Part shown: one piece after another, positions 15,319 to 43,474 of the stretch
Layout: every line of letters begins with the position of its first letter
Position numbering within the stretch: the stretch's first letter is position 1
Source of the DNA: Geosiphon pyriformis
Lineage: Eukaryota > Glomeromycota > Glomeromycetes > Archaeosporales > Geosiphonaceae
Direction: 5' to 3'
DNA: 64,000 bases
Assembly (NCBI GenBank): GCA_016748015.1
Contig: JAAOMT010000009.1
Span: forward strand, 1,448,145 to 1,512,144
The notes under the pieces: generated by a model
Database searches by the model: none
What the model was told of the DNA's origin: nothing
The model's input: only the letters and a program-made list of their open reading frames with translations
Made by a program: the position numbers and the translations under genes

Positions 15319-15343
15319 GGTGAAATTTCATTTTGGTAAACAG

Positions 15344-15653: not shown

Positions 15654-16526
15654 TGTTATCATTGATTATTTGGGGTCTCAAAGCAAATAATAAACTCGTA
15701 ACTTGGTGCTCAATTGATATACTGCTGTTAATTTCTGAAGGTTTTCGTAATTTGAAGGTTTTGGTTGAGTCCTTTGTATAATGAACAGAGATTCAATTGA
15801 TAATTTTATCCATAGCTTTCTGAAACTACAGTTTCGTCAATTTCTTTCTCAACGTGATGGCCAGTAATCTTCTTGGTAAGCTATTCTCAAATCTGAGTGT
15901 CTACCCTTATTTCTGGGTCTTTTATTAATGCTATATCCTGATGTTAGTATCTCTGCATGTAAATCCTTTTAATTAAGTTAACAAACAACAAAGAAAATAA
16001 AGCAAGAAAAAAAATAAAGAAAATAAGAAAAATAAGCCAAGACAATTTGCATGTTAGTATCCTATCAATAGTCATAATCAAGAGCTATTGTTCCAGTATG
16101 ATTAAGTATCAATTACTATCAACATAAAGTGTTGATAGTGGAGAGTGGATTAAGATAGTGAATAATTATTTATTGATATTTGTGATGTGGAAGGTTGCTT
16201 AGATCAAATCTAAACTAAAAGATCTGTTTTTTTTTTTTCTAATGCTACCACTATATATACATAATTAATGTTCTATGAGATTGCTCATATTCCTGAGCAA
16301 TGTGTTATAATTTCTTGAACAATGCTCACATTGCTAAGCAATGTGTTTTAATTTTCTAATATTGCTCTATATTGCTGAGCAATGTGCTGTAATTTTCTGA
16401 TATTGCTCCATATTGCTGAATAATGTGCTGTGATTTCTGACATTGTTTCATATTGCTGAGCAATATGCTCACGTGTTAACTATTACTCTCTTATTGGTCT
16501 ACTATTTTCTATATCTGTTTTTCTTT
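15654..16526 (-). repeat. 3' LTR of element A
   Basis: It begins (plus strand) TGTTATCATTGATTATTTGGGGTC and runs to ctatatctgttttt. Compared with 33316-34081 and 25629-26492, the terminal ataagtaaca and the adjoining PPT are missing, so a deletion of about 25 bp has removed the LTR/interior joint. It carries 4-5 copies of a repeat of about 50 bp with palindrome ATTGCTnAGCAAT. Confidence 0.85.
16275..16472. repeat. U3 tandem repeats with ATTGCTnAGCAAT palindromes
   Basis: Four to five imperfect units of about 50 bp, each with the hyphenated palindrome ATTGCT-n-AGCAAT followed by gtg..tgatttctga. The same block occurs with different copy number in the LTRs at 26235-26430 (3-4), 33925-34020 (2), 44085-44110 (1) and, inverted, at 45165-45315. 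The position in U3 suggests protein-binding or enhancer sites. Confidence 0.75.
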
Positions 16527-16539
16527 TAATATTGAGCTC

Positions 16540-17720
16540 TGTTAAAATCCTCATTTTGAGTTATGTCGAATATTTCTTTCTCAAGTAGTGTCTGTTCTAT
16601 CCTACTTTTTATTTCTTCAATTTGTGAGTTGTTCATTTTTTCTTATTGGTTAATAGTTATTGTTTTCATATTAGAGTGTAACAATACTTCTGGGTAGTTT
16701 TGAAATATAGTGTGTAGTCAATAAATGGTCTTAACATATAGTGTTATATTTGTTTTCTTTCCAATAATGTCTTCAATGTTCTGAATTATCTCTTAATTAA
16801 AGATTTTTTTGGATTTGTCAAGATATAACTTCTGTATATCTACTTTTTATCCCAATTAATAGTAGCAGTATAGTATTGGAAATTGGTCTATTCATTGGTT
16901 CTAATTTTTTTTAGTCAATTCTTCTGTTGGAACCATGATTGTTATCTTTTCAAAAGTGTTCTTTACTTTTTCTATTATTTTATCTGACCAGTTTATTGAT
17001 TGTTTCTGTGGTCGCTGATATAGTGTACTTTTTTCTTTTTGTTTGGTGTTTTGATAACAAATTGTTTGGTTGTTGATGATAATTTCCATGTTTACTTGCT
17101 GTTGACTTAAAGCCTGAAACAATTGTTAAGCTAAAATGTGAATATAGTTTAGTATTTCCATTTTTTTTTGTTGCTTTTGTCATGTATACTGTGTCTTTAT
17201 ATAATCTTTTGGTTGTTCAATTTGACATGTTTGGTTTAATGATTATAATTGGTTTTAAATCTTATAAAATCTTATCTGGTTGAACTAATGTTCTCTGTAC
17301 TCTTAATTGTAGAATATTATTAGTGGATGATGACACTATATGATAATATGGTTTTAGTCAATCACCATGTGCTGCTTTGGCTAAGATTTTGTTGTTCCAT
17401 CTTAATTTAAAAGCTTTATTTCCTAAAATTTCTTCTATGTAAAATGGTTTGTCTCATTTGGGGTCAAATTTTCTATTCCATTGTTTTTTCACTTTAGTAT
17501 GATGTAAAAGTACTTTGTCTTCAATCCTGAATTTAACTGGTTTATCTGATAGTTGGTTATTATGTCTTTTTTTTGTTTCTCTTATGACTTTTGGATACTA
17601 TCAGCTGCTTTTTGCCATTTGTTTTTCAGTATCTCCATTAAGTCATATGTTTTTCTCAACAATGTTCTTTGAAAATTCTTTTCTGTTATTGGTTCTGTTG
17701 AATATATTCTGACTTCTATC
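16540..17720 (-). pseudogene. Element A, C-terminal domain after integrase
   Basis: Fragments downstream of the integrase on the minus strand include a WNRKFDPKW-like stretch, DKPFYIEEILGNKAF, then LTKKNWKQWTEQLP and LGWKLNIQ (start near 16910), ending EIFDITQNEDFN...AQY near 16540. The same order is seen in element B (34082-35300). I recognise no known domain. It probably forms the end of Pol or a separate small protein. Stops and shifts are frequent. Confidence 0.5.
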
Positions 17721-18330
17721 TTAACTGGTAATGTTGCTGTTTTACCATATACTAATTCAAATAGTGTTGTTTGTGTAGTGTCTTACTTCATTGTCCAGTA
17801 AGTGAATAATACTAATGGTATGAACAAATCCCATTTATCCTGGTTTTCTTGGCTGATCTTGGCTATTGTTTTACACAGTGTTCTGTTAAATCTTTCAACT
17901 AACTCATTTGTTTGTGAATGGTATGGTAATAATAATAGTCTTTTTATCCCAAATCTCTGACTTAATTCTGCCAATATTCTATTTACAAGTTCTTTGATCT
18001 GATAGTAGTTCTTTTGGACATTTGTGTCAACAGATCAAATCTTAATGAATGAATTCAGCAACAAATTTTGCATCTGCTTTTTGAATGGCTTTTGCTTCTG
18101 GCCATTTAGTAAGATAATCCATGGTTATTGCAATATATTTGTTGCCTCTGCTGGTGATTGTTAATGGTCTGATTAAGTTAATTCCGATATGATTAAATGG
18201 TTGTTCTATTTTGATTGGTCTCAATGGTTCACTGGGTTTTGTTCTACCTTTTCTTTGACAAGCATCACAATTTTGAATATATTAGATAATATCTGGATAC
18301 ATTAATGGCCAATAGTATTTTTTTTTGGTT
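17720..18330 (-). pseudogene. Element A integrase catalytic core
   Basis: Minus-strand blocks include QPFNHIGIN, AITMDYLTKWPEAKAIQ (first Asp present), LLSDQ (second Asp present), LAELSQRFGIK and LVERFNRTLC (Glu present), followed by NQDKWDLFIPLVLF. These are the D,D(35)E landmarks of a Ty3/gypsy integrase. Catalytic residues remain, but a frameshift near 17985 and stops elsewhere break the frame. Confidence 0.75.
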
Positions 18331-20000
18331 TTTTCTATTGTTGCTTCTTTATGAAAATGTCCTGCTGTTGGATTTGAGTATATGTTGAATAATATTGTCT
18401 CTTTTTTTGGTTCTGTAATTACTCTGGTTGGTTGATCTAGATTTCTTTTGTTCTTCTAGTAGAGTATATTTTGATGGTTGATAAAATATTTTGATAGTTG
18501 TTTTATGTTGTTTTGTTCTTTCTGAGATAATTTTTTCTTGAACAATTGGGTATTTATATAATGTTGGAGTTGTTGGTATTTTTGTATATTCATCTTTTGT
18601 TATATTTTTGGGTTGAAATGTTTTTAAATTTGTTTCATTCACAACAGACTGTTAGCATTTCCGTTTTCTTTTTCTTTTTTGTAATGTACTATATAATTAA
18701 ATAGTAAAAGCTCTATTTTCCATCTGGCATGACAATCATTTCCAAATTTTTGCTTCTGGATTGAAATCAATTCTTTGTGATCAGTATATACATCAAACTT
18801 TTGACTCAAGTATTTTTTTCATTTGATGACAGCCTAATAGATTGCTAAGTGTTTCAATGCTGGAGTTCCATAGTTTTTTTCAGCTGAACTTAAGCTGTGG
18901 CTAGCATATGCTACTGGGTGTTTTCATCTATCTGGTCTTTTTTGAGATAGTACTGCTCTTAATGCTTGACTTAATGTGTCTGTTGTAATTATGGATGGTT
19001 TACTATAATCTGGATAGATCAATACTAAGGCTTGAATAAACTTTCTTCTTAATGTATCAAAAACTTTTTGCTGGGTTTCTGTCCATTTATATTTCGTGTT
19101 CTTTGTTTGTAGTTGATATAGTAGTTGAGCTATTTTGAAAAAGTATTTGATAAAGCAATGGTAGTAATTAGCAAATTTTAAGAATATTCTTAATTTTGTG
19201 AGATTATTTGGTACTGGAAAGTTTTTAACAATCTTAATCTTATCTGAATTTGTTTTAATACTATCTTTGCTCATAATATGTCCCAAAAACTTGAGTTCTG
19301 TTTTACCAAAAAAGTATTTGTTTGCATTTAATTTTAATACTGCTTATCTGAATCTTTCAAATACTTGTTGGAGATAATGCAGATGATCATCAAATGTTTT
19401 TAAAAACACATTGATGTTGTCCAGATATACAATTACTGATTTCCATAGTAGTTCCATATAAACAATTTCCATAAGCCATTAAAATATGACTGGAGCATTC
19501 ATCAAGCCAAATGGCATTACTTCAAATTCGAAATTTCTTTTTTAAGTTGTAAAAGCTGTTTTTTTCTTGTCTTTTGGTTTCATGACTACTTGCCAGTAAC
19601 CACTATCTAAGTTTAAAGTCAAGAACCATTTCTTTCTTTCAAAAATATTGAACAGCTCTTGGATCTTTGGTGTTAGGTAACTATCTTCTTTTGTTATTCT
19701 ATTCAGTTTCTGGTAATTCACACAAAAGTGGATTTTTCCATTTTTCTTATGAACTAGTACTACTGGTGATAATTATAGGCTCATTGATGGCTAAATTAGC
19801 CCATTGTCAAGCATCCAATTGATTTCTTGACAAATGATCTCATAGCTGGCTGGTGGTACTCTGTATGCTCTTTGTTTGATTAGCATTGCATTTCCAGTCT
19901 TGATCTAATGCTGGATTATGTTAGTTCTGCCAAATTCATTTTTGCTGGCAAAAATGTTATTAAAGTTGTTGAGTAACATCTTGAGTTGTATCCATTGAAG
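18330..20000 (-). pseudogene. Element A reverse transcriptase and RNase H
   Basis: RT blocks on the minus strand run from about 19960 to 19180: LDSGYWQV region, MPFGLMNAP, VIVYLDNINVF (YxDD box with the last Asp changed to Asn), NKYFFGKTELKFLGH and FPVPNNLTKLRIFLKFA. RNase H follows: IITTDTLSQALRAVLSQ near 18990-18950 (the usual DASGQALGA altered), then YSDHKELIS- and QKFGND-like blocks. It is non-functional. Confidence 0.75.
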
Positions 20001-20399
20001 TGGGTCTAAGTTTCCCAAGTTCATTTGTTCCAACTGTTCTGGCTGGAGCAAATAGTATTTTTCTCATCTGTATATTGTTTAAGATATAATATCTACATAT
20101 CCATACAGTTGTGGAAAATCTGAAATGGTGTTTGGTAATTGGTCTTTAATTTCAATAGTTAGATATCCAATAGTGGTTTCTTCTAATATCTCGATGATAT
20201 CTCCTGTGTTGTTGTAAATGGGAATTTTGATGTGACTGTAATTCTTGGCTGGTATGTATAGATTGACTAATCCAATTTTTCCTGATTTACAAATTGTTGC
20301 TTCTGCTTTAAAAATCTGTACTTGATTCTTTATTTTTCACTATGTACTGGTTATATAGTGGAATAGAAATTGATTGGTGGGTAGAGATAATTTTTTTCT

Positions 20400-20810
20400 T
20401 GTCAACAATTTCTTCTTCTGCCATATTAACTGGTACATCTATTCTACCTGTGAATCCAAAACCCTATATCCCTCTAACTGTAATCCCTAATTTTTTCTTG
20501 TTTCCCACTGATATTAATTGAGCTATTTTAACCAGAGACAAGAATATTGTCTGTGCTATCTTTTTGTTTGGCTCTATAATGTAGGCTTTTTCTAAGTTAT
20601 TTTGTAGTATTGTAATGATATTTTCTACATATCCTGTGTCAATTATTCTTCCTCTGATGTTAATTCTTTTTTTTGCCAAACTATTCTTAGATACTAATTG
20701 AACCATTGTTGTTGCTAAGATTTCTAATGCTATTTTGAGATCAATATATGTGCACAAATGTGGTTCCAATTTAATGACATCTTTTTCTGGATATCTCAAA
20801 TCAAACCCAG
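20400..20810 (-). pseudogene. Element A dUTPase domain
   Basis: Directly next to the nested solo LTR, the minus strand reads TGFDLRYPEKD (motif 1, usually AGFDL), MVQLVSKNSLAKK (motif 2, usually GRSS-like), IRGRIIDTGYVENI (motif 3, catalytic Asp kept), KIAQTIFLSLV (motif 4), then RGI-stop-GFGFTGRIDV (motif 5). All five motifs of the trimeric dUTPase family are present in the right order and spacing. dUTPase hydrolyses dUTP to dUMP and limits uracil in DNA copies. One TAG replaces the expected CAG in motif 5. Confidence 0.8.
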
Positions 20811-21636
20811 TGTTACAAGTAATTTTTTGGGGTCTTAAATCAAATAACAAACTCATAACTTGGTGCTAAAAGTTATTCACATTGATGTTAATAATCTAAA
20901 GATTTTATATCTGAAGATTTCGGTTTGAGTTCTTTGTATAATGGACAGAGATTCAATAGTTGTTTTATCCATAGCTTCCCAGAATCACAATTCTGTCAAT
21001 TCTTCTCTTGGCGTGATGGCCAACAATCCTCTGGTAAGTATTCTGTATCTTCTGTACATGTTTTACCCTCTCACAGAGGTTTTTTACTAGACAATCCTTG
21101 ATGTTAATAATCTAGCGCTTTATTCAACTAATTAGTGCACAACAATGAAACCAAAATAAAAATAAAGAAAAGAAATAAAAGAAATAATGAATAAGCCAAG
21201 GTGGTTTTGCAAATTAGTATCCTGTTAATAGCCATGATCAAGAGCTATTGTTCCAGTATGTTTAAGTATCAATTACTATCAACATGAAGTATTAATAGTG
21301 GAATTAGGTTTGAAATACCAAATAGTTATTTATTGTGTTTGGAAGGTTGTCTAAATGAAATTTAAACTGGGAGGTCTGTCTTTTCAGCTTCTCATACTAC
21401 TGCTATATATACATAATTGAGATTTCTTGATTTCTCAATTTTTCACAACAGGAATTCTGCAATTTCTTTGAGAGAATCCTGGAATTCTGGAATCCTGCAA
21501 TTCCTCGTGAGAATTCTGTAATTCCTGGAATCCTGCAATTCCTGAAAGGAATCCTGGAATTCCACATTTACTATGTTTACTTCTGATTGGCTAATAACTA
21601 TGCTAATATATATTCTCTATAATTCTATGAGTAACA
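20811..21636 (-). repeat. Solo LTR (GGAATTCC subfamily) nested in element A
   Basis: Bounded by TGTTACAAG and GAGTAACA, 826 bp, with target duplication CCAG/CTAG at 20807-20810 and 21637-21640. Removing it and one duplicate gives ...cccagcatcagtattatg, which matches the uninterrupted element B sequence (ttctgcatcagtatcatg). Its U3 lacks the ATTGCT palindromes and instead has a GGAATTCC-type repeat at about 21432-21565. It is the remnant of recombination between the LTRs of a separate insertion. Confidence 0.88.
21432..21565. repeat. U3 repeats with GGAATTCC / GAATTC palindromes
   Basis: A run of short units of the type ctggaattctggaatcctgcaattcct, about 25 bp, with EcoRI-like palindromic cores. 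It occupies the same LTR position as the ATTGCTnAGCAAT repeats of the other LTRs. Confidence 0.7.
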
Positions 21637-21639
21637 CTA

Positions 21640-22870
21640 GCATCAGTATTATGCACTCATTCTGGCATAATATCTTTGTTATTATTATTGAACTATTTCA
21701 GTTTCTGCTCTTTAGTGAGGTCAAGAAGTACAATATATTGCTTGGAGTTTAAATCTGAGTCTGAATCATTGTTATCTTTATTGTTATATTGAGTGGAGCT
21801 GGAATCATTGTTTTCATCATTATTGTTGTTGAAATTTGAATTAGGATTGAAAATTGATTCCAATTTTGATGTGCAGCTGCCAATTGGTTCTTCCTCTTCT
21901 GGGATCATATAGATCATGCATAGTAGTGGATTGTAAATGAGATCACACTTATTACAATACTAAAAGTCACATAGAATCAAACAGTAGTTACATAGTCTTG
22001 TGTTTATTTCTTCTAACCATTGCTCTTGTTTCTTTCTAGTGGGTACTAATTCTTGGTAATACTTATGAAATTGTTTTGGGTCCATAGGCTTTAGGATAAT
22101 ATTTGGGTTTAGGTCTCAGTCAAATTCTATGAGTTTTGGTGAGTTGTTTTTGATCATTCTTATTTTTTTTGGTAATGCTCCTTCAATTTTGGCAAGTACT
22201 ATTTACCAGATTTTGTCATTATTGTGTAGACATCCATCCAAACATTTTACTGCTCTCTTCCAGACTGCTTCTATTGGTGTCTTTTTTTTTACCCAGTCAC
22301 TTAATAGGATTGTGTACTAACATAATTTGTTGTATGTTCCTCCTTTTCCAGAAATATTGTTCCACATTCCTTTGTTGAGGAGAGTTTTGCCACAAGCCAA
22401 ACATGGTTTATTGTCCCATTTCTCTTTTCTTTTTGGTCATTCAAACCGTTTAATAATACATGAGCAGCAATAGAATTTAGTTGCCATCGGCCATTCTTCA
22501 TCATTGCCATAGTATGTATCTATTGTGAACAATTTCTTGCCATAGTTAATGCATATTGGCAATAGTTAGATGGTGGTGGTGTGGTATAGGTATAAGAAAT
22601 ATGAGTAGTGGTGGTGGTTGGTGCTGGCTCTTCTTCTTTCTCTTTTTTTTTTCCTTTTGTATTCTTTTTTCACTCCCAAGTTGGCATTAATTCAATGTTA
22701 TCATCATCAGTCTACTATGTTTGTTTAGCATTTTTAACAGGTTTTTCCTTTTTTTTCCCTTTCTATTGTCATCTTAAAATAGTACTAATGGCAATTTGTT
22801 GTAATTAGTGTTAGCCCAGAAAACTTGGAAGGCTTCTCAGGTAGATTTTTTTTCTTTTTCTTCCAATTCA
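21640..22870 (-). pseudogene. Element A Cys-rich domain of unknown function
   Basis: Between protease and dUTPase, the minus strand encodes paired Cys motifs: INYGKKLF (CINCGKKL in other copies), FYCCSC, CLACGKTL and, further on, a CYYCDF/CDYCLI-like pair near 21960-22000. Asp/Asn/Ser-rich sequence (NNNNDENNDSSS, about 21780) precedes the dUTPase. The spacing resembles several zinc ribbons or a RING-like array. It is conserved in order in elements A, B and C and in the pol-less element, so it was a real part of the polyprotein. I cannot name the family. Confidence 0.6.
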
Positions 22871-23039
22871 ATAAGTGGCTTGTTATTGGTAGTGATTTTG
22901 AAATGACCACAAGTAGCTAACACACATGTGTAATGGCTATTTTGGCTAATCTGCAGTTCTTAGGTGTTTCAGTCAAGCACAGGATTGGTTTTAGACAGCC
23001 AGTTATTTCCAACAAGAGCTTAGTACTAAGTTGCTTCCA

Positions 23040-23480
23040 TTACCAATACTTTGATTAATATTATGATGTCATTGACTTTAAATGGGAAGTCATCTATTTC
23101 ACCAATTGGAGTTTTGGTCATACCATTGGCTGTTATGATTTTAGCACTGGCAGCATGATTAACTTGGTAACCTAATTGGTTTATGAATTGTCATGTGATG
23201 ATGCTATCAGCTGATCTACTGTCTAGGATCAGTTTAATGTGCTGCCTATCAACTTTAGCATCTGTATACATTGCAGTGATGGGTTTTAATTCTAAAGTAG
23301 CTCTATTAAATAGTGGTGTTTCAGCTGGTTTTTCGAGTTCAAAAGAGAAGATAGTGGTAAGTAATTCATTCTTAGTAATAGTTGCTGGCAGTATATTGTT
23401 GGTAAGTGGCTGCTTTTGTTTAGTTCCTAAGTTGTGGGATGTGGCATCTTCTAGAGTTATCAGAAGACTTAAATAGTTCT
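23040..23480 (-). pseudogene. Element A aspartic protease
   Basis: Minus-strand translation gives LILDSRSADSIIT, INQLGYQVNHAAS, TPIGEIDDFPF and a VLV.EAT end. The first Asp is kept, but the following Gly of D-S-G is Arg. It aligns along its length with the element B protease (start 41261). One subunit of about 100 residues would act as a dimer, as in retroviruses. Confidence 0.7.
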
Positions 23481-23499
23481 AAAAACTTGGGTTTTGGGC

Positions 23500-25563
23500 A
23501 TATCTAGTCCCCAAATTCTAAGAACATGTTCCTAATTGTTGGGTGGAAAAATTGAGAATTGGTTGATGAACAACTATTGCCAATCTCCAGTTTTGTTGTA
23601 TTATTTTTGGCTGTTGTGTTCCGATTTGAGGTAAGTTTTATGGTGGTGTTTGAATTTGTTGGGACTGGTATATTACTTATAACTACAGCTAATAAATAAT
23701 GGATGTTGTTGGCTGATAAATGGAAGCTTGATATATCAGTGGTTGATAAATTGGCTGTTGTGTCATTTGGGTGTAATAAAGTGAGTATTGATTCTGATTT
23801 GGATATTGATTCAGCATTTGAAACCTATAATTAGGGTTTTGGTATTGATTTCCTGATTATTGGTTATTATTATAAAAATGGCAGTCAATTCTCAAATGGC
23901 CTTGTTTACCACAATTGTAGTAGACATGTATTTCTTGCTGCCATGGCTGATTGGATGATAGTGAAGAACATGACTGATTTTGGAAGTAATTCATGTTTTT
24001 GGAATTATTGTGCCATTGGGATGGCTGATAAATTGCACGATTGTTAGCTAAATATCCTTCTAATTTCTAATTAATTGAATTACTGAGTTGTTTCAATTTG
24101 GAATCCAAGTCAGATAATTCATTTATAACTAAGTTTACGGCTTGGGCATGATTAGTCTTTAATTCAGCTAACTTAAAGTCTTTGGCCTATATAACTGCAT
24201 CTTGGAGTGTTGCTGGATGTAATAATTGTATGCATTGAAAAAGACTACTGTACAGGCCATAGATAAACTGGTTTAAGATCTGTGGTGCTGTAAAATAGTC
24301 AGCTTGGATTGCTTAAATTTGGCATAAGTTCCTGTAGAAGTGTCCCAAATAAGTGATAACTATTTCAGTTTCTCTTTGTTTGATTGTAGTAAAGATATTG
24401 GCTAGGTGATTAATACTATTATTATTATTGAAATATCCTAAAAATGCAATTTTAAATTCCTGGAATGTTTAAGGTTTGGCAACTAAACTTTAATACTATG
24501 AGTTGATAGTATCTTGTAAAAAATAAGAATCACTTGAAGAGCTTTGTCATTATTCTATCTATTTGGCTACAATGGCTTTTTCCATGTTATTGAGCCATAT
24601 TTGAACATCATTTTTTTTGCTGGTAAATTTTTTTATCTTGGTAATTGGAGCGTAAACCATTAGTTGTTGTTGTGGTTGTTGTTGTGGTCATTGCTGAACT
24701 TGTTGTTGGGATAGCAGTTGTGGCTGTTGTTGCTGTTTGGCAATTGGTAGAATGGGTGGTAAATTGATTTCAATTATTGAAGGTAAGTTTTGCTGATTAA
24801 TTATGTCAGAATTTAAATCATTCTGATTTTCTGAAGTTTGAATATTTGGAATTTAATTTTCCGGATTTTCTAAGATTGGTGTTCACTTGTTAATTTTCTG
24901 ATCACTACCTTCTTTGGAGTCAGTTATTTTTCAAGGACTAACAGCTCCAAAATCTGGTTGTGGTGGTAGTAATCGAATGCCTGATGGTATTGGAGATTGC
25001 AATTTAAATTTCTCAAAATAATCACTGTATGTTTCTAATAGCTCTGTTTTCTTTTGTTTACTTTGGAATGGGATTCTGTTCAATAATGTTATTACACTTG
25101 CTTTAGTTGCATTTGTTATGTTGATAGTACTTCTGAATATATGGTAATATAATAGATTTGCAGATAAATTAAATCTTTGTTTCTTTCAAGTAGGTAGTTG
25201 GATTTGTTTTGGTGTTCCAGCTGGTGTTTGTAACTTTCTTTTTCCTTTATCAGCAAAAGTGATAAGAAATCTCTGCTTGGTATATCTTTTAATTTTCTTG
25301 TTTATTTTTGTGATTAGGAGTGCAAATAAGTAGTTTTGTGGAAGAATAATGCTTTGGAATAGTTTACTAAAGAAATTGTTGAAGACAGATTCTGGATCTC
25401 CTTGGCCTTCCAAATAATATACTATTTTTTTATTGATATAGTAGTTGAAAGCTGATTCTGTTGGCCAATTATTATTTGTTAATCTGAGATGGGTATGATA
25501 GTGTTGGAATAAAGATTTTACAAATCCTAAATAGTTTGTCTCTATTTCTTCAGATTTTGCCAT
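23500..25563 (-). pseudogene. Element A gag
   Basis: It starts MAKSEEIETNYLGF at 25563. An N-terminal basic part (KKIKRYTKQRFLITF) is followed by Gln-rich sequence around 24660-24740, a capsid-like segment (about 24600-24050) and a zinc knuckle near 23890-23930. The knuckle reads YYNCGKQGHLRIDC, so its first Cys is Tyr. Pro/Gln/Tyr-rich repeats follow. Stops and frameshifts split the frame after the first 125 codons. Confidence 0.7.
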
Positions 25564-25628
25564 TGTTTTGGATGGTTATTTGTTGGTGCCAGTTTTTTGT
25601 TAAATTATATCTCACAGAGAGCACCAAA

Positions 25629-26492
25629 TATTGCAGTTGATTATTTGGGGTCTCAAAGCAAATAATAAACCTGTAACTTAGTGCTCAATTGATATACTAC
25701 TGTTGATTTCTGAAGGTTTTCATGATCTGAAAGTTTTGGTTGAATCCTTTGTATAATAAACAAAGATTCAATTAATAGTTTTATCTATAGCTTCCCAAAA
25801 CCACAGTTTTGTTAATTTCTTTCTTAGCATGATAGCCAGTAATCTTTCTGGTAAGCTATCTTCAAATTTAAGTGTCTACCTTTATTTTTGGGTCTTTTAC
25901 CAGTACTATATCTTGATGTCAATATCTCCATGTGTAAATTCTTTTAATCAAGTTAACAAACAACAAAGAAAATAAAGCAAGAAAAAAAATAAAGAAAATA
26001 AGAAAAATAAGCCAAAACAATTTACACATTAGTATTCTATTAATAGCCATGATTAAGAGCTATTGTTCCAGTGTGGTTAAGTATTAATTACTATCAACAT
26101 GAAGTATTGATAGTAGAAAATAGATTAAGATAATGAATAATTATTTATTGATATTTGTGATGTAGAAGGTTGCTTAGATCAAATCTAAACTGAAAGATCT
26201 GTCTTTTTTTTTTCTAATACTATCACTATATATACATAATTAATGTTTTATGAGATTGTTTACATTCCTAAGCAATATGCTATGATTTCTTGAGCAATGT
26301 GCCCTAATTTTCTAATATTGCTCCATATTATTGAACAATATGCTGTGATTTTCTGATATTACTCCACATTGCTGAACAATATGTTGTAATTTTTAATATT
26401 GCTCCATATTGCTAAGCAATATGCTTATGTGCTAACTACTACTTTTCTATTGGTCTACTATTTTCTATATCTGTTTTTTTTTATAAGTAACA
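25629..26492 (-). repeat. 5' LTR of element A
   Basis: 864 bp, plus-strand ends TATTGCAGTTGATTATTT and TTATAAGTAACA. The expected TG end is TA by a G-to-A change. It pairs with 15654-16526. The right edge is followed by ACAT, the same tetranucleotide found left of the 3' LTR. Confidence 0.88.
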
Positions 26493-33315: not shown

Positions 33316-34081
33316 TGTTACAAGTGATTATTTGGAGTCTCAAGTCAAATAACAAATCCGTAACTTGGTACTTAGTTGGTACTCAGATGTTGATATTTGA
33401 AGGTTTTGGTTGTGGAGTCCTTTGTATAATAAACAGAGATTTAATAATTGTTTCAGTAGCCTCCCAGAATCACAATTTTGTCAAATTTTTTTCTCAGCAT
33501 GGTGGTCAGTAATTCTCTTGGTAAGTTATTCTCAAATCTATGAGTGTTCTATCCTTGTTTCATGAGTCTTTTACCAGTCTCTATGAAGTCTGTATCTCAG
33601 CACTTAATTCTTAATCAATTTAGTAAAACCAAAGAAATAACAAAAAGAAATAAAAGAAAATAAAAGAAAATAAAGAAATAAACAAAAGCAATTGCAAGTT
33701 AGTATCCTATCAATAGCCATGATTAAGAGCTATTGTTCCAGCATAGTTAAGTATTAATTACTATCAACATAAAGTATTGATAGTGGAGAGTGAATTTGGA
33801 TGGTAAATAGTTATTTATTTGATATTTGTGAATGGAAAGTTGCTTAGATCAAATCTAAACTGAGAGGTCTGTCTTTTTTACTTCTAATGCTATTACTATA
33901 TATACATAATTAATGTTCTATGAGATCACTCACATTTCCAAGTGATGTGCTATGATTTCTTGAGCAATGTGCCATGATTTCTGACATTGCTCTACATTGC
34001 TAAGCAATGTGCTCATGTGCTAAATACTATTTTCTCATTGGTTTGCTATTTTCTATATCTGTTTTCTTTTTATAAGTAACA
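33316..34081 (-). repeat. 3' LTR of element B
   Basis: 766 bp with perfect TGTTAC...GTAACA ends (33316 and 34081), flanked left by ATGT. Two ATTGCT/AGCAAT-type units lie at about 33925-34020. Confidence 0.92.
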
Positions 34082-34089
34082 TTATCTCT

Positions 34090-35300
34090 TTTTTTTTAAT
34101 ATTGAACTCTGTCAAAATCTTTGTTTTGAATTAATTCCAATACTTTTTTTTCAAGTATTGTTTGTTTGACTCTGTTTCTCATATCTTCTACTTGTATATT
34201 GTTCATTTTTCCCCATTGGTTAATGGTTATGGTTTCCATGTCAGAGTATAACAGTATTTTTGGATAGTTTCAAAATATGTTGTGTAGTTGGTATATTGTT
34301 TTAACATGTAGTATTGAATTCATTTTTTTTCTGATAAATTCTCCAATTTGTTGTATTATGTCTTGGTTGAATATTCTCTTGGATTTGTTAGTATACAACT
34401 CCTGAATATTCAACTTCCAACCTAACTGGTAGTAACAGTATGATATTGGAAGTTGTTCTGTCCATTGCTTCCAATTTTCTTTTGTAAGTTCTTCTGTTGG
34501 TGCCATAATAGGTATTTTTTCAAAAGTGTTTTTTACTTTTTCTATTATGTTATTTGACCAGTTTTTACCATTTTTTGGTAACTGCTAATATGGGGTGTTT
34601 TTTGTCTTTCTTTTGGTGTTTCGATAGTAAATTGTTTGGTTGTTAACAATAATTTTTATGTCTAACTGTTGTTGACTTAAGGCCTAGAACAATTGTTAAG
34701 CTATAGTGTGAATATAATCTGGTATTTCCATTTTTTTGGTTGCTTTTGTTGTGTGTATTGTGCCTTTATATACTTTTTTGGGTTGTTTAATTTGACATGT
34801 TTGGTTCAATAACTATGATTGGTTCCAGATCTCGTGAAATTTCATCTGGTTGAACTAATATTCTTTGTACTCCTAGTTGTAGAATGTTATTGGTAAATGA
34901 TAATACTATCTGATGATATGGTTTCAGTCGATCACTATGTGCTGCTTTGGCTAAAATTTTGTTGTCCCATCTTAATTTATAAGCTCTATTTCTAAGAATT
35001 TCTTCTATGTAAAATGGTCCATCCCATTTGGGGTCAAATTTTCCACTCTATTGTTTTTCTACTTTGGTATGATGTAAAAATACTTTGTCTCCAATCTTGA
35101 ATTTAACTGGTTTATCTGGTAGTTGGTTATCGTGTTTTTCTTTTTGTCTCTCTTGTGATTTCTGGATGTTATCAGCTGCTCTTTGCCATTTATTTTCTAA
35201 TGTTTCTATTAAGTTATATGTTCTTTTTAGTAATGTTTCCTGAAAATTATCTTTGGTTATTGGTTCTGTTGGGTAAGTATTGACTTTTATCTCAATTGGT
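34090..35300 (-). pseudogene. Element B, C-terminal domain after integrase
   Basis: Minus strand, including MAPTEELTKENWKQWTEQLP at 34506 followed by YYQLGWKLNIQELY. It corresponds block by block to 16540-17500 of element A. The family is not recognised. It is Trp/Tyr-containing and polar, and ends in a coil-like Lys/Glu segment just before the PPT. Confidence 0.5.
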
Positions 35301-35900
35301 AATATTGCTGTTTTACCATATACTAATTCAAATGGTGTTGCTTATATAGTGTCTTGTTTCATTGTTCGATAAGCAAATAATACTGATGGTATAAACAAAT
35401 TCTATTTATCTTGGTTTTCTTGACTGATTTTGGTGATTGCTTCACACAATGTTCTATTAAATCTTTCAACTAGTCCATTGGTTTGTGGATAATATGGTGA
35501 TGATAATGGTCTTTTGATTCCAAATCTCTGACTTAATTCTGCTAATGTTCTGTTCACAAAGTGAGTTTTTTAATCTGATAATAGTTTTTTTGGACATTTG
35601 TGTTGACAGATCAAATCTTAATGAATGAATTTGGCAACAGATTTTGCATCTGCTCTTTGAATGGCTTTTGCTTCTGGCTATTTAGTAAGATAATCCATAG
35701 CTACTGCAATATATCTGTTGTCTCTGCTGGTGATTGTTAATGGTTCGACTAAGTCAATTCCAATGCAATTGAATGGTTGTCTCACTTTAATTGGTCTTAA
35801 TGGTTCACTGGGTCTTGTTCCTTCTTTTTTTTAACAAGCATCACAATTTTGAATATATTGGATAATATCTGGATATATTAATGGCCAATAGTATTTTTTT
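35300..35900 (-). pseudogene. Element B integrase catalytic core
   Basis: Blocks on the minus strand: YIAVAMDYL-like at about 35700, CPKKLLSD then a stop, THFVN, LAELSQRFGIKRPL, SPYYPQTNGLVERFNRTLCEA and NQDK. The order and spacing of the D,D,E core are preserved. Several TAA/TAG codons interrupt it. Confidence 0.75.
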
Positions 35901-36249
35901 TTTGGTTTTTTCTATTGTTGCTTCTTTATGAAAATGTCCTGCTGTTGGATTTGAGTACATGTTGAATAATATTGTTTCTTTCTTTGGTTCTGTGATTACT
36001 CTGATTGGTTGATCTAGATTTCTTTTGTTCTTTCAGTAAAATATATTTTGATGATTGATAAAATATTTTGATTGTTGTTTAATGTTTTTTTGTTCTTTTT
36101 GAGATAATTTCTCTTTGAACAGTTGGGTATTTATATAATGTTATAGTTGTTGGTATTTTTGTATATTCATTTTTTGTTATATTTTTGGTTTGAAATGTTT
36201 TTAAATTTGTCTCATTCATGATAGTTTATCAGCATTTCCATTGTCTTTT

Positions 36250-37540
36250 CCCTTTTTATAATGTACTGTATAATTAAATAGTGAAAGTTTTATTTTCCAT
36301 CTGGCATGGCAATCATCTGCAAATTCTTGTTTTTGGATTGAAGTCAATTCTTTGTGATCAGTGTACACTTCAAACTTTTGGCTCAAGTATTCTTTCCATT
36401 TGATAACAGCCTAATAGATAGCTAAGTGTTCTAGTGCTGGAGTTCCATAGTTCTTTTCAGCTGGACTTAAGCTTCTACTGGCGTAAGCTACTGGATGTTC
36501 TCTTTCATTTGGTCCTTTCTGTGATAGTACTGCTCCCAATGCTTGACCAGATGCATCAGTAGTAATGATGAATAGTTTGCTGTAATTTGAATACATCAAT
36601 ACTGAAGCTTGAATAAGCTTTCTTCTTAAGATATCAAAAGCTTCTTGTTGAGTTTCTGTTTATTCATACTTTACATTCTTTGTTTAAAATTGGTGTAGTG
36701 GTTGGGCTATTTTAGAAAAATTCTTGATAAAGCAGCAGTAGTATCCAGCAAATCCCAAGAATGCTCTCAATTCTGTAAAATTATTTGGTACTGGAAAGTT
36801 CTTAACAGTTTCAATTTTGTTTGGATCTGTTTTTATTCCATTTTTGCTTACCATATGTCCCAAAAACTTGAGTTCAGTTTTCCCAAAGAAACATTTGGTT
36901 GCATTTAATTTCAGTCCAGCTCTTCTTAACCTTTCGAACACTTGTTGAAAATGATACAGATGATCATTAAATGTTTTTGAGAACACATTGATATCATTCA
37001 AGTATACGACTACTGACTTCCATAGTAGTCCAGTGTATACAATTTCCATTAGCCGTTGAAATGTGGTTGGTGCATTCATCAATCCAAATGGCATGACTTC
37101 AAATTCAAAATTTTCTTCTCTTGTAGTAAATGCTGTTTTCTCTTTGTTGGCTGGATCCATGGCTACTTGCCAGTAACCACTATCCAAATTCAGTGTCAAG
37201 AACCATTTATTTCTTTCAAAAGCATTGAACAGCTCTTGAATTTTGGATATTAAATAGCTATTTCCTTTGGTTACTTCATTCAGTTTCCAGTAATCTACAC
37301 AAAAGTGGATTTTCCCATTTTTTTTTCAGACTAGTACTACTGGTAATGACCATGGGCTCATTGATGGCTGAATTAGCCTGTTGTCAAGCATTTGGTTAAT
37401 TTCTTGATGAATGATTTTATGGCTAGCTGGTAGTACTCTGTATGCTCTTTGTTTAATTGGCATTGTATCTTCAGTTTTGATCTGATGCTGGATGATGTTG
37501 GTTCTGCCAAATTCATTTTCACTGGCAAAGATGTTATTGA
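36250..37540 (-). pseudogene. Element B reverse transcriptase and RNase H
   Basis: A long open piece (37199-36684) holds LDSGYWQVAMDP, TAFTTREENFEFEVMPFGLMNAPTTFQ (in parts), VVVYLNDINVF (YLDD with the first Asp to Asn), LNATKCFFGKTELKFLGH and LRAFLGFAGYY. RNase H follows at 36599-36411: TTDASGQALGAVLSQ, then HPVAYASRSLSPAEKNY. Only a few stops separate the pieces. Confidence 0.85.
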
Positions 37541-37545
37541 AGTTG

Positions 37546-38097
37546 CTAAGTAATGTCTTTAGTTACATCTGTTGAAGTGGGTCTAGATTCCTCATGTTTA
37601 TCTGTTCTAATTGTTCTAGTTGAAGCAGATAACATTTGCTTTATTTGTAGATGGTTTGTGATGTGATGTTTACCACAAAGCTGTAAAAAATCTGGAATAT
37701 AGTTTGGTGGTTGGTCTTCAATTTTGGTGGTTAAATATTCAATGATGATTTCTTTTGGTATTTCAATAACATGTCTCATTGTGTTGTAGATGGGAATTTT
37801 GATATTCTTGGGGCTGTTGGCTAATATGTAGAGATTGGTAAGTTCAATTTTTCCTGATTTGCAAATAGTAGCTTTTGCTTCAAACAACTGAGCTTGATTC
37901 TTTACTTCTCTTTTTATAGCTAACATATACTGGTCATATGGTGAAATAGAAATTGTGTGATGGGTTGAGATAATTTTTCTTTTGTCAACAATTTCTTCCT
38001 CTGCCATATTAATTGGTATATCTATTCTACCCATTGATCCAAATCTTTGTATTCCTTTAGTAGTAATCTCCAATTTTTCTCTGTTTCTTACTAACAC
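37546..38097 (-). pseudogene. Element B linker between dUTPase and RT
   Basis: An open stretch starting in dUTPase motif 5 (KGIQRFGSMGRIDIPIN). A region with MAEEEIVDK, IPIYNTMRHVIEIPKEIIIEYL and LQLCGKHH follows and leads into the RT. The corresponding stretch exists in A (about 20100-20400) and C (about 53830-54230). Function unknown; probably a Pol spacer or template-handling segment. Confidence 0.6.
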
Positions 38098-39400
38098 TAA
38101 CTAAGCTATTTTCACCAGAGGTAAAAATATTGTCTATGCTATCTTTTCATTTGAATTTATGGTATATGTTTTTTCTGAGTCATTTTGTAGCATAGCAATA
38201 ATATTTTCTATGTATTCTATGTCAATTATTTCTTCTCTGATATTGATTTTCTTTTTTGCTAAGCTACTCCTGAATGCTAATTGAACCATTGTTGTTGCTG
38301 AAATTTTCAGCACTATTTTCAGATCAATGCAAGTGCACTGTTACCAGACAAAATTAGAGATATTATTTAGCATGAAATTATCTTATAAATCCTATCATTA
38401 ATTGGCATATATTATCGTTTCAAATTATTACTTATTACATTAGCAAAATGTCCAAAATTATCATTTAATTAATAACCCAATTTGTACACAACACAAATAT
38501 AACCTAATTGTGATGATCAAATCATGCAATATTCCGAAACTATGTAACATTTAAAAGTTCACTGAAATTTGTAGAAATTTGCCAAAATAATTGATAGTTC
38601 ACCGAAATATCTAATAGTTTGCAGAAATAACTTGTAGTTCACCAAAATGTATCTTTAGTTCAGCGAAATTGTAGAAAATAGCAAAGTTCAAGTTCATAGA
38701 ATAGTGTTACGACAAGTTGTATAAAAGAAGAGCATTTTTCTTCAAGAAAATATATCTTACTTTAGATTTATCACTTAGAACCATTCCTACACCCACACAA
38801 AAAGAAATAAATATCAAATAATTCAAAAAACCAAATTCTTTTATTATTGTACTTGGAAAATCCTTAAAAACCCAACTAACGTTTTGAAATTGATTAGCTA
38901 CCAATTTCAGTAAACTGTTAGTGACTCCAGGCCTGGATAGAAAACGTTTCTTTTGACAAAATTCTATTTCTTTTACATTTCTTTTATTTTTTTTCTTTTC
39001 TTATTACAATTATTAAGGTAGCCTACAGACAAGATTCCTGTAGAAGAGTTGACTTTCACAGCAAAGTAACTATACATTTTAGTGAGCTTTCAGACAAGCA
39101 ATTTCTGGGAAAGAGTTGACATTTACTACAATGTAACTACATAAAGTAACTGGCAAGGAATTGGTCATTCCACTTATAAGCCCAGCAGTTCAAATTATAA
39201 GAGATAATTTGAAGATAAATTCAGTTATTGGAGGTTCAACTACTTCTAGAAAACGTGAATTTGCAACCAACAGACAGTTACAACATTCAAGAAAAGAGAC
39301 CAAAAACCTTTGGTAACAGCACAAGTGAGGTTCTAATTTGATAGAATCTTTCCCCAGATATCTCAGATCAAATTCTGCATCAGTATCATGCACACATTTA
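38050..39400 (-). pseudogene. Element B dUTPase, split by a solo LTR
   Basis: Motif 1 (AEFDLRYLGKDSIKLEPHL) lies at about 39385-39323. Beyond the 980-bp LTR the rest resumes: VLKISATTMVQL, FRSSLAKK (motif 2 intact), EEIIDIEYIENI (motif 3, Asp kept), KIAQ-type motif 4 near 38130, and KGIQRFGSMGR (motif 5). It is the clearest evidence that these gypsy elements carry dUTPase. The enzyme family is nuclear or viral in general; here it is part of the retroelement polyprotein. Confidence 0.8.
38339..39318. repeat. Solo LTR (TGTTACC..GGTAACA family) nested in element B
   Basis: 980 bp, TGTTACCAGAC to CTTTGGTAACA, flanked by GCAC at 38335-38338 and 39319-39322. Removing it and one GCAC restores ...atgcaagtgcacaagtgagg, matching element A (tatgtgcacaaatgtgg). 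It contains short repeats (gttcaccgaaat type, 38560-38670), a TATA-like ttgtataaaagaag near 38714 and a poly-pyrimidine stretch. Other copies are at 4076-5090 and a scrap at 47066-47186. No full-length parent is in the window. Confidence 0.9.
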
Positions 39401-40640
39401 GGCATAATACCTTCATTATTATTACTGAACTATTTCAGTTCTTGCTCTTTGATAAGGTTAGAAAGAGTGATATATGTTTTGGAGTTTGAATCAGAGTCTG
39501 AATCATTGTTATTTTCATTGTTGTTTTGAGCAGAGCTAAAACTAGTGTTTTTGTTATCATCATTGTCAGAGTTTGAATTAGGATTGAAAATTGATTTTAA
39601 TTCTGATGCACAGTTGCTTATTGGTTTGTTTTTTTCTGAGATTGTGTAGATAATGCATGGTAGTGGATTGTAAATGAGATCACACTCATTACAATACTTG
39701 AAGTCACATGGAATTAAACAGTGGTCACATAATCAGATGTTTATTTCTTCTAAGTGTTGTTTCTGTTCCTCTCTGATGGGTGCTAATCATTGGTAATGTT
39801 CATGGAATTCCTTTGGATTGTCCTTGATGTTGCCAAAGACATCAAAAGTTTGGACGTATTCAGGTTCAAGAAGTGATAGGAGGTTGTTTTTGATTTTCAG
39901 TAGTTCACTGGTTGTTATGCCTTCTGTTTTCACATACACCATTCTCCAGAGTTCGTGTTTGTCATGAGAATATCCTCCTAATTGTTGTAATGCTCTTTTC
40001 CAGATGTCATCAATTGGTATGTCTTTGCGTACTCAGTCATTGATTAGGATTGTATATTGGCACATTTCATCACACATTCCTTCTTATCCAAAAATGTTGT
40101 TCTATATTCCTTTGTCTGGGAAAGTTTCTCCACAAGCTAAACATAGTGTATTATCCCATTTTTTCATTTGTTTTGGCCTTCCAAAATGTTCAACAAGACA
40201 TGCACAGCAATAAAACTTAGTTGCCATCTGGTATTTTTTGTCATTATTACAGCATGTGCCCATTAAAGACAATTTCTTGCTGCAATTGGCACATATAAGC
40301 TTTGGTCGATGATAATTCAGTTGTGGTAGTACATAAGTATATGCACGGTAAATGATGGTTGGTGTTGGAATTTCTTCATTTTCTTTCTCTTTTCCTTTGT
40401 GGTTATTCTTTTCTTACTCCCAGGTTGTTGGTAGTTCATTTTGATCATTATCAGTTTTCCAGGCTTGATTCGGATTCCAGGTAAGTTCTTTTGTTTGTTT
40501 TCCTTTTCCCTTATTATTTCAGAATAGTATCAGTAGTAATTTGTTGTGGTCATTTTTATTGGCCCAAGAAACTTAATAGGCTTCCCAGGTAAGTTTTTTT
40601 TTTCTTTTTCCAATTCAATAAGTGGAGCTGATGATGTGAT
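39400..40640 (-). pseudogene. Element B Cys-rich domain of unknown function
   Basis: Minus-strand Cys pairs include ICANCSKKL (about 40290), KFYCCACLV (about 40215-40190), CLACGETFP (about 40145-40120), and CDYC/CNEC-type pairs near 39670-39740. Between them are TTSELLKIKNNLL and YVQTFDVFGNIKDNPKEFHEHYQ-like blocks shared with element C. It lies between protease and dUTPase. I cannot assign a known fold; a multi-site zinc-binding module is likely. Confidence 0.6.
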
Positions 40641-40775
40641 GATGGGTTTGAAATAGCCACATGTGGCTAGTATATGTGTGTGTCATCTATTCTGGCTAAG
40701 TTGGAGCTCTTGGGTGTTCCAGTCGAGTGTTGTGTTGATTTTGAACAGCCAGTCATTACCCACCAGTGCTTGGTA

Positions 40776-41261
40776 TTAAGTGGCTTCTATGACTAATACC
40801 TTAATTGGTACAGTGATGCCATTGATTTCTATAAGCAAGTTATCTATTTCACCAATTAGAGTCTTGGTGGTTTCATCAGCTGTAATTATCCTTGAACTGG
40901 CAGCTTGATTAACTTGGCAACTTAATTGGTTTATGAGCTGTTTTGTAATAATGCTGCCAGCTGATCCACTATTTAGGATCAGTTTGATAGACTGACCATC
41001 AATTTTGGCATCCATGTACATTGCCATGATAGATTTTTTCTCGAGTGCGGCTCCACTGAACAAAGGAGTTTTTGTTGGTTCCTCGATTTCAAAGGAAAAT
41101 ATTGCTGCTAAAGACTCATTTTCCATAACAGTGACTGGCAAAATATTGGTAAGTGGTTGCTTCTGGTTGGGTTCCCAGGTGTTGGATGAGGCATCTTCTG
41201 GGGTAACCAGAAGGCTTAAATAGTTCTGAAAACTCAGGTTTTGAGTATACCCAGTTTCCAA
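40776..41261 (-). pseudogene. Element B aspartic protease
   Basis: A 161-codon open piece with LILNSGSAGSIITKQLINQL, then TLIGEIDNLLIEINGITVPIKVLVIEAT in parts. It has the fold signature of a retroviral protease, with catalytic D-S-G read as N-S-G. The upstream half (PLFSGAALEKK) is the usual lead-in. Confidence 0.78.
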
Positions 41262-43420
41262 ACTCTACTGTTGTGATCCTGATGGCTAGTTGGATGAACT
41301 AAAAATTAGTTGGTAAACAACCATTGCTGATTTCCAGTTTTGGGTAACTCTTGATTTAGAGTTTTCTAATATCATTTGAGCAGAGTTGGGTGATAGTGTT
41401 TGAACTGTGGGTGTCTGATAGATTATTTGTGGCTGCAGCTGATATATAGGTTGGGACTGCAGTTGATAAATGATGGGTGCTGTTGGCTGATAAATTGGTG
41501 GTTAATAAATTTGTGGCTGCATCATAGGTATGTAATTTGGTTGATATATTGCTGAGATTGATTGATAACTCGGAGCTGAAAACCTGTGATCAGGATTTCA
41601 ATATTGATTTCCCGATCATTGGTTTTCTATTCTTAACTGACAATCAATTCTCAAATGTCCTTGTTTACCACAGTAATGGCAAATACATGTCTCTTGCTGC
41701 CATGGCTAATTGGATGATGATAAGAAATGCAACTGATTTTGTGGGCGATTTGTGATTCCTAAATTATTGTGTCATTGAGATGGCTGATAAATTGCATAAT
41801 TGTCAGCTAAGTACCCTTCCAGCTTCTAGTTAATGGAATTACTGAATTGTTTCAATTTGGAATCCAATTCAGATAATCCATTCATTATTAGATTTATGGC
41901 TTGGGCATGGTTGGCTTCGAGTTTAGCTGCTTTAAAATCTCTGGTGTTGTTAACTGCAGCTTAAAAGTCTACTAGATGCATTGGGCATATATGTTGGAGA
42001 ATGCTACTGCACAGGCCTTTAATAAATTGGTTTAGGATTTGTGGCGCTGTAAAGTAATCAGCCTGCATTGCTTGAATCTGGCACAGATTCCTATGGAAGT
42101 GTCCTAAATAAGTAGTGACTGCTTTATTTTCTCCTTGTTTAATAGTGGTGAAAGTGTTTGCTAGCCAATTAATACTATTGTTGTTGCTGAAGTATTATAG
42201 GAATGCAAGCTTAAATGCAGCAAAATCTTGGGGTTTGTTAGCCAAGCTTTAATACTATGAATCGATGATATCTTAGAGAAAGTAAAGAATGGTCTGCATA
42301 GCTCTGGCATTATTTCAGCCATTGGCTGCAATGGCTTTCTCCACATTATTTAGCCACACTTGAATGTTGTCTTTTTCACTGGTGAATTTTTCAAGTTTCA
42401 CTATCGGAGTGTAAGCCATTGGATCGACGTTTGGTTGTTGCAGTTGTTGTTGTAACTGTTAAAACGGCTGCTGGAGTTGTTGAAGTGATTGGAGTAGCTG
42501 CTGTTGCTGTTCGTTAATTAGTAAAGCTGGATTAATCCCAATTACTGGAGGTAAATGTTGTTGATTATTGATGTCAGAGTTTCAATTGTTTTGATTGTGC
42601 TGTGTTTAGAAATTCGGAGTTCTGATTTCCAGATTTTCCAAATTTGGATTTTGCTGAGTCTAAAAATTCGGGGTTTCAATGTTTGGTTTTCTGGAATCGG
42701 GTTCTGGTAAGTAAATTTTTAATCTTCAGATTCTTCTTCTTTTTCTTCTTGTTCTTTCTCCGATTTCATTACTTCCCAGAGACTCATGGTTCCAAAATCT
42801 GGTTGGGGTGGTGGAGATCAAAGTCCTGATGGCATTGGCGATTAGAACTTAAATCCTTCAAAATATGCACCATATGATCTTAGAAGATCTTCTTTTTTTT
42901 GTTTACTCTAAAATAAGAATTGTCCAAAGGTTAATGTCACATGTAATGTGGATGTGTCTGTTGATGTGATGTTGATGGTACTTCCAAGTGTATAGTGGTA
43001 TGATGGGATTGTTAATAATTCAATTCTGGTTTTCTTCCAAGTGAGTGGTTGTATTTGTTTTGGTGTTACTGCTGGTGTTTGCAATTTTTCTTTGCTTTTA
43101 TTGACATAAGTGATTGGGTATCTTTGTTGTGTGTAATGTTCAATTTCTTTATTAATCTTAGTAATAATGGATGCGAAATTATAATTTATTGGTAAGCTGG
43201 TGTTTTGGATTAATTTGTGGTAAAAAGTTTTTCTCGCTGATTCAGTATTTACTAGTGTTCTTAACAAATAGGCAATTTTTTTGTTGATGTAGAAATTAAA
43301 GGCTGATTCTGCTGATATCTAATTGTGGTTCAATCTCAAGTATTGACAGTAGTATTGAAATAAGGATTTTGTGAATCCTAAATGGTTTGCTTCTATACTT
43401 TCTGATTCTGCCACTGTTGA
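41262..43420 (-). pseudogene. Element B gag
   Basis: Starting about 43420 (AESESIEANHLGF; the ATG is GTG). It continues through FYINKKI and HYTQQRYPITYVNKSKEKLQ (in pieces), Gln-rich sequence near 42420-42510, a capsid-like segment and an intact zinc knuckle CHYCGKQGHLRIDC at about 41640-41680. Tyr/Gln/Pro repeats follow (41390-41560). Several stops interrupt it. Confidence 0.72.
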
Positions 43421-43474
43421 TTTATTTGTTGGTGCTGGTTCTCTGTAGGATTATACCTTACAGAGAGCACCAAA

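Follow-up and report, generated by a model that had tools for sequence, protein, structure and literature searches.

Background

In fungi, Ty3/gypsy elements with a dUTPase have been described from the Basidiomycota (PosPlaTy3-3, -4 and -5 and Phanerochaete elements), together with Tmt1 of Tuber, and in PosPlaTy3-5 of Postia placenta the domain lies between the protease (PR) and the reverse transcriptase (RT) (PMC2864245). The same position is occupied throughout the Juno, Vesta and TelKA elements of bdelloid rotifers, which have an animal host and additional ORF3 types (PMC5408684). Among retroviruses, the non-primate lentiviruses (FIV, EIAV, CAEV, visna) encode a dUTPase in pol between RNase H and integrase; the enzyme lowers dUTP in cDNA synthesis, matters at low host dUTPase and is needed in non-dividing cells, while in betaretroviruses the enzyme is fused to a CCHC nucleocapsid as NC-dUTPase (PMC4531489). 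A likeness between the dUTPases of betaretroviruses and of fungal chromoviruses has been remarked on (PMC2774666), and in the fungus Entomophthora muscae the dUTPase family PF00692 is enriched (PMC11105155).

The stretch of DNA analysed here, 64,000 nucleotides that we call the window, comes from Geosiphon pyriformis (Glomeromycotina); public records of the element proteins encoded in it belong to this species, with locus tags G9A89_. This glomeromycotan fungus harbours cyanobacteria. A preliminary description of the window, made from the sequence letters, reported a dUTPase segment between a Cys-rich region and RT in three Ty3/gypsy elements, A, B and C, and was uncertain whether such a placement had been described for this lineage. 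We find that the segment is real and does lie between the Cys-rich region and RT, the full order being PR, Cys-rich module, dUTPase, RT. A position between PR and RT is already on record for PosPlaTy3-5 (PMC2864245) and for the rotifer elements (PMC5408684), so that the Geosiphon elements are a variant of an order known from Ty3 elements of other hosts.

The differences lie in the host and in the neighbouring module. The Postia elements, compared by description only, come from another fungal phylum and from a survey of chromodomain elements, whereas none was found in the Geosiphon pieces tested, and the passages that describe the Postia elements mention nothing Cys-rich separating PR from the dUTPase, unlike the arrangement in Geosiphon (PMC2864245). 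In Juno, likewise compared by description only, a zinc knuckle follows the dUTPase, whereas in Geosiphon a module with 14 Cys/His positions precedes it (PMC5408684). The betaretroviral protein shares with Geosiphon the fusion of dUTPase to a nucleic-acid-binding part (predicted in Geosiphon), but the Geosiphon partner is an unrelated module, in pol past the protease and with other Cys/His spacing, and the lentiviral enzyme, although also in pol, does not lie between PR and RT (PMC4531489). In those parts of the open-access literature on dUTPase retrotransposons, fungi, Geosiphon and Rhizophagus that our searches brought up, no PR-dUTPase-RT element in Glomeromycotina surfaced, and as far as searched, what is new is the fungal lineage and the 14-Cys/His module, seen in Geosiphon proteins alone.

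Results and discussion

The dUTPase segment in elements A, B and C

A dUTPase segment was found in all three elements, by profile (PF00692) in A and C and by tblastn in B, as the preliminary description had it, and in none of them are the five motifs uninterrupted (LTR, insertion, stops). The coordinates are collected in Table 1. In A, the ORF at 20464-20865 on the minus strand matches PF00692 with 37.1 bits (cut-off 22, E 3.2e-9), and the motifs GFDL, KNSLAKK, IIDTGY and KIAQ are followed, past an in-frame TAG, by GFGFTG, all in order and in one frame. The domain of A is thus interrupted twice, by the TAG before motif 5 and by a solo LTR that separates DA from GFDL within motif 1. Because of this LTR the downstream coding piece begins at 20810; the span originally given, 20400-20810, is correct to about 20 bases, but the T of its motif TGFDLRY belongs to the LTR, the true upstream half being the piece that ends in VHNTDA. 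The C ORF at 54336-54563 also passes PF00692 (23.8 bits, cut-off 22, E 4.1e-5). In B the two halves of the domain are separated by an insertion of about 1 kb (38338-39318), and the only B ORFs given to Pfam for dUTPase, 37546-38100 and 39190-39429, had no PF00692 match.

Table 1. Positions in the window of the features of elements A, B and C
Feature	Position	Strand	Evidence
Element A with both LTRs	15654..26492	-	4-bp flanking repeat ATGT each side; ends TGTTAC..ATAACA read by eye
LTR pair of A	15662-16526 / 25637-26482		85% identity, blastn
A protease region	22954..23277	-	tblastn with L032 PR, 56%, E 6.3e-35
A Cys-rich module, frame broken	21696..22556	-	tblastn with L032 and B pieces, E 8.9e-41 / 1.6e-18 / 3.0e-29
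A dUTPase N-terminal piece, upstream of solo LTR, end VHNTDA	21637..21719	-	tblastn 6.5e-4; translation
Solo LTR of related element, 826 bp	20811..21636	-	blastn to other LTRs; ends TGTTAC..GTAACA; target repeats CTAG / CTGG
A dUTPase, motifs 1 to 5, in-frame TAG ahead of motif 5	20422..20810	-	tblastn 1.7e-64; PF00692 on ORF 20464-20865
A reverse transcriptase	19125..19754	-	tblastn E 2.2e-75; RVT_1 29.2 bits, just below cut-off 29.6, on ORF 19542-19772
A integrase region	17783..18281	-	rve_3 E 0.0013, below cut-off, on 17783-18034; repeat with B and C
Element B with both LTRs	33316..44170	-	4-bp flanking repeat ACAT; ends read
LTR pair of B	33318-33952 / 43477-44111		91.5% identity, blastn
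B protease	40704..41024	-	PF13975 E 1.3e-6 on ORF 40776-41264; tblastn
B Cys-rich module	39433..40413	-	tblastn with L032 module 41%, E 8.3e-45, over 39682-40308; no Pfam over cut-off
B dUTPase N-terminal piece with motif 1	39319..39456	-	tblastn 8.3e-20 (related Geosiphon copy as query)
B dUTPase motifs 2 to 5, two stops	38005..38337	-	tblastn 2.8e-36 (related Geosiphon copy as query)
B reverse transcriptase	36687..37325	-	RVT_1 E 1.1e-27
C protease region	55732..56019	-	tblastn 9.6e-30
C Cys-rich module	54830..55481	-	tblastn 3.8e-29 / 5.0e-18
C dUTPase, several stops	54192..54659	-	tblastn 6.6e-66 to L092; PF00692 on ORF 54336-54563
C reverse transcriptase	52890..53519	-	tblastn 2.1e-66

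An AlphaFold2 model of the A ORF, built from a 24-sequence alignment, has a pLDDT of 79, with the LTR-derived residues 1-17 under 50 and block means of 86 to 98 for residues 21-110. Its top match in Foldseek is the E. coli dUTPase (6hde; E 1.0e-6, rmsd 1.6 over 97 columns), and all 50 matches listed are dUTPases by title. The predicted fold of the A domain is that of trimeric dUTPases, so that structure prediction agrees with the profile matches in upholding the original assignment.

The elements show the Ty3/gypsy hallmark of LTRs with TG..CA ends and short target repeats, seen in A, B and the solo LTR (Table 1). In the integrase region of A, the ORF at 18042-18281 had no Pfam match. A fourth, degenerate copy lies on the plus strand at 3041-5498, with a protease at 3041-3364 and Cys-rich pieces at 3753-3839 and 5229-5498; no dUTPase was found in it by tblastn at E<=1e-3.

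Related copies in the genome

The Geosiphon genome (124.7 Mb, 406 contigs) was searched for further copies. Two ranked searches, in which the best 150 of 3181 and the best 150 of 4762 first-look candidates were scored, yielded at least 150 copies each, and the two lists have no common place on contigs C330, C354 and C366, compared by eye. This lack of overlap on three contigs suggests a minimum of about 300 copies in the genome, which is a lower bound and not a tally. Taken as a whole, the best explanation is very probably that A, B and C are decayed copies of a very abundant clade of Ty3/gypsy-type LTR retrotransposons of G. pyriformis.

Relatives with an open dUTPase, for which the preliminary description had suggested a survey, do exist. 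In L032 (C238:341600-351500) a single frame of 1307 aa comprises retropepsin (PF13975, 2.7e-9), Cys-rich module, dUTPase, RT and RNase H, and its dUTPase reaches 89.6 bits with PF00692 (E 1.8e-25) and 106.3 bits with TIGR00576 (cut-off 102.55, E 1.1e-30). Across relatives we observed Retrotrans_gag (5.8e-12), gag-asp_proteas (2.7e-9), RVT_1 (2e-35) and RT_RNaseH (2e-35), in the Ty3/gypsy order Gag, PR, RT, RNase H, integrase, of which the integrase is weak (rve_3 6.4e-5 and 0.0013, below cut-off). Another relative, L034:4409-8707 (minus strand), runs from gag through dUTPase in one frame of 1433 aa, with RT in the next frame piece and a stop between. A search for a chromodomain gave nothing in three pieces of B (34270-34584, 34787-35047 and 35048-35341), in L034:829-1578 or in L036:7576-8229; of the six relatives that were extended, L031, L032, L033 and L035 contain masked sequence on the downstream side of the dUTPase.

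We sampled 60 dUTPase loci, 30 being the best by PF00692 and 30 the best by similarity to A (A itself included). A Cys-rich module lies upstream in 59 of the 60 and PR in 54, and RT lies downstream in 52; of the eight loci without RT five contain masked runs, and L001, L020 and L066 do not. Selection by dUTPase was avoided in a second sample, chosen by RT rank: the first 20 unsampled places, in rank order, whose RT-profile span (1-3 to 204-205) is typical of known dUTPase copies. All 20 have a dUTPase at the expected distance, 18 at full length in one frame and ten without a stop; five of the 20 places are also in one of the two ranked copy lists. Given that 20 of 20 relatives chosen in this way have the domain at the same place, its presence is beyond chance. 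Among six further RT places, the two of the same RT class carry both dUTPase and Cys-rich module, and both are absent from all four places with other RT spans (2-203, 14-203), whose RT is 52-55% identical to that of L032 and, in three of them, has a protease about 260 aa ahead. In this sample, to which spans 1-203, 3-203 and 7-203 do not belong, the pair of dUTPase and Cys-rich module marks one RT class.

Motif retention was scored in the A family (30 copies, including window copy A), family 1 (17), family 2 (13) and the RT-ranked copies (18), and is given in that order. Motif 1 (M1, by the loose pattern [FY]DL) is present in 28/30, 17/17, 12/13 and 17/18, M2 in 17/30, 11/17, 13/13 and 15/18, M3 in 26/30, 17/17, 10/13 and 14/18, M4 (IAQ) in 29/30, 17/17, 13/13 and 18/18, and M5 in 4/30, 12/17, 11/13 and 11/18.

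The Cys-rich module

The module upstream of the dUTPase is about 200 aa long and contains 14 Cys/His columns (CxxC, C, CxxC, CxxC, CxxxC, H, CxxC, CxxC), each conserved in at least 14 of 17 aligned copies out of the 59 with the module. From this pattern we infer that it binds zinc. No Pfam or NCBIfam profile, zf-CCHC included, matched it over cut-off, a PDB search returned two chance-level matches (E 0.58 and 0.59), and its structure model was unusable (pLDDT 34). All 29 database proteins with the module are from Geosiphon; since the search needs shared 5-residue words and covered proteins of 388-1235 aa, remote relatives may escape it.

The nearest element-type dUTPase relatives outside Geosiphon are metagenome proteins with 43 to 55% identity and the same domain order: P0051, P0066 and P0067 (PR, dUTPase and RT by Pfam), P0060 (dUTPase, RT) and P0070 (PR, dUTPase). 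None of the five is among the 29 proteins with the module. In the metagenome proteins the stretch between PR and dUTPase is, by eye, an acidic linker, with a short CTCENCE in P0067; in P0060 and P0070 small groups of Cys follow the dUTPase.

Transition-only decay

The LTRs of A, as defined by blast, differ by 107 transitions and no transversions, and those of B by 53 and 1; ranges widened to include flanking sequence give 116/8 and 59/5. Young pairs of both lineages (L001-L030 and L068-L071) behave in the same way (for example 190/1, 159/3 and 109/5 transitions/transversions), and older pairs are richer in transversions (for example 380/66, 452/110 and 486/203). Singletons of family 1 in PR, Cys-rich module and dUTPase comprise 77 C-to-T and 74 G-to-A changes. 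Every context and both strands are affected, CpG most strongly, with 161 of 170 CpG sites varying in family 1. The decay looks like repeat-induced point mutation (RIP) or very strong methylation-driven deamination. Ten genome matches to the DNA cytosine methylase family PF00145, some with stops and including C318:788280-789372, are candidates for parts of such a pathway. A published study reports that RIP signatures were undetected in Gigaspora margarita and in Mucoromycotina (PMC8647823), and the papers that a literature search on RIP in Geosiphon listed deal with other fungi. The pattern seen here bears on the reach of a RIP-like defence into Glomeromycotina.

A link between the dUTPase and this decay was considered and is ruled out by the dUTPase-free loci L068-L071, because all six of their pairs (105/6, 109/5, 80/9, 145/7, 87/6 and 87/9) match the young dUTPase pairs.

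Selection, alternative readings and origin

Given that differences among young copies are almost all recurrent transitions, we counted shared transversions instead. In the dUTPase these are strongly synonymous: family 2 has 6 nonsynonymous (N) and 21 synonymous (S) sites (p 1.9e-12, the expected S fraction being 0.159), and the A family has 10 N and 25 S (p 1.5e-13). The corresponding N/S counts are 24/30 and 61/47 in RT (family 2 and A family), 9/19 in the family-2 protease, and 16/16 (family 2) and 143/60 (A family) in the Cys-rich module. Family 1 has no shared transversion in PR, Cys-rich module or dUTPase, so the test is silent for its dUTPase; its RT row, 93 N to 8 S, runs contrary to the others. 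That row and, in part, the A-family Cys-rich row, which are probably misaligned owing to masked or rearranged copies, were left out of the selection argument.

Because the loci behind these family counts were ranked by dUTPase, the dUTPase figure is biased downwards. The RT-ranked family-2 sample (15 copies) has shared N/S counts of 10/18 against 7/1 for singletons (Fisher p 0.016), and with all its sites pooled the ratio is 0.17 (p 5.3e-7 against neutrality); over all 18 full-length RT-ranked copies, across families, the ratio is weaker at 0.40 (p 1.5e-7). A comparison of shared and singleton changes of every kind in the dUTPase found no difference (odds ratios 0.66, 0.64 and 1.59; p 0.41, 0.28 and 0.21), this test being blunted because transitions recur. 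The transversion counts indicate that purifying selection acted on the dUTPase before insertion.

These results bear on whether the domain could be a captured passenger, out of use and kept merely through the youth of the copies. The three broken window copies, the stop in the domain or broken frame in 10 of the 20 RT-ranked copies, and the all-changes test, with no sign of constraint, would fit such a passenger. We nevertheless think it very improbable, as M1, M3 and M4 persist across samples though families 1, 2 and A have diverged from each other at 43 to 48% of the residues in this domain, and the excess of synonymous shared transversions also speaks against it. Hardly more credible is a dUTPase-like domain with no enzymatic task, which would act in the particle or have a binding or regulatory function instead. 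M5, the C-terminal arm, is indeed altered by our pattern in most A-family copies, but decay after insertion, such as also affects the LTRs, could account for these losses; families 1 and 2 mostly retain the motifs, M5 and M2 among them, and L032 passes the TIGR00576 cut-off.

As to where the domain came from, Geosiphon does possess a dUTPase gene of its own, located by the motif GVIDADYRG, the only genomic sequence to fit the search pattern exactly. It is split by introns (L067, C262:402677), with the motifs spread over five short reading-frame pieces. A recent capture from this gene can be given next to no probability and is ruled out by two observations: the host protein is 31-34% identical to the element dUTPases, which are nearer to the metagenome element proteins, and the dUTPase tree separates stand-alone and host sequences from element dUTPases with a support of 100. 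The element families are 52-57% identical to each other and 35-49% identical to six stand-alone dUTPases. From these identities and the split it follows that the capture is older than these families and was not a recent host event. In an unrooted RT tree the dUTPase-free places group with three dUTPase-bearing metagenome proteins (support 84), so loss of the domain in the dUTPase-free lineage is possible.

Proposed role

The reading that we prefer, and hold with strong confidence, is a pol with the order protease, Cys/His-rich zinc-binding-like module, trimeric-type dUTPase, RT, RNase H and integrase, whose dUTPase, judging from domain content, would act on dUTP in the particle during reverse transcription. 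The element protease would free a Cys-rich/dUTPase protein, which would trimerise in the particle and hydrolyse dUTP to dUMP as cDNA is made. Nucleic-acid binding is the probable task of the Cys-rich module, which would also keep the enzyme close to RT; the nucleocapsid portion of betaretroviral NC-dUTPase may act likewise. Uracil would thereby be kept out of cDNA in a cytoplasm with low host dUTPase, and the uracil-free cDNA would be spared cutting by host uracil-DNA glycosylase. A gene for the latter seems present in the host: three adjacent TIGR00628 matches were found (best E 1.8e-14), each below the whole-protein cut-off, as split exons would give, and a genome search with PF03167 gave one weak match (E 9.1e-4). 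With such a gene, uracil in cDNA would be a target.

More tentatively, and as a possibility that we consider rather doubtful, the Cys-rich module and the dUTPase may work together as a single unit whose origin lies within the Ty3 elements of Geosiphon, with a new zinc module placing the dUTPase on cDNA in the particle, which would make a self-protecting reverse transcription complex; we suppose that this could suit a fungus with many nuclei, a shared cytoplasm and perhaps rare nuclear division. The elements extend element-borne dUTPases to an early-branching symbiotic fungus and present the dUTPase as a component that selection has maintained in a fungal element, paired with an undescribed Cys/His module. 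Since very many copies occur in one genome, the evolution, gain and loss of the dUTPase can be studied with many replicates.

Host genes adjoin the elements in the window at 13868-15327, where a proline-rich protein and a peroxiredoxin-like ORF were named by eye from the ORFs.
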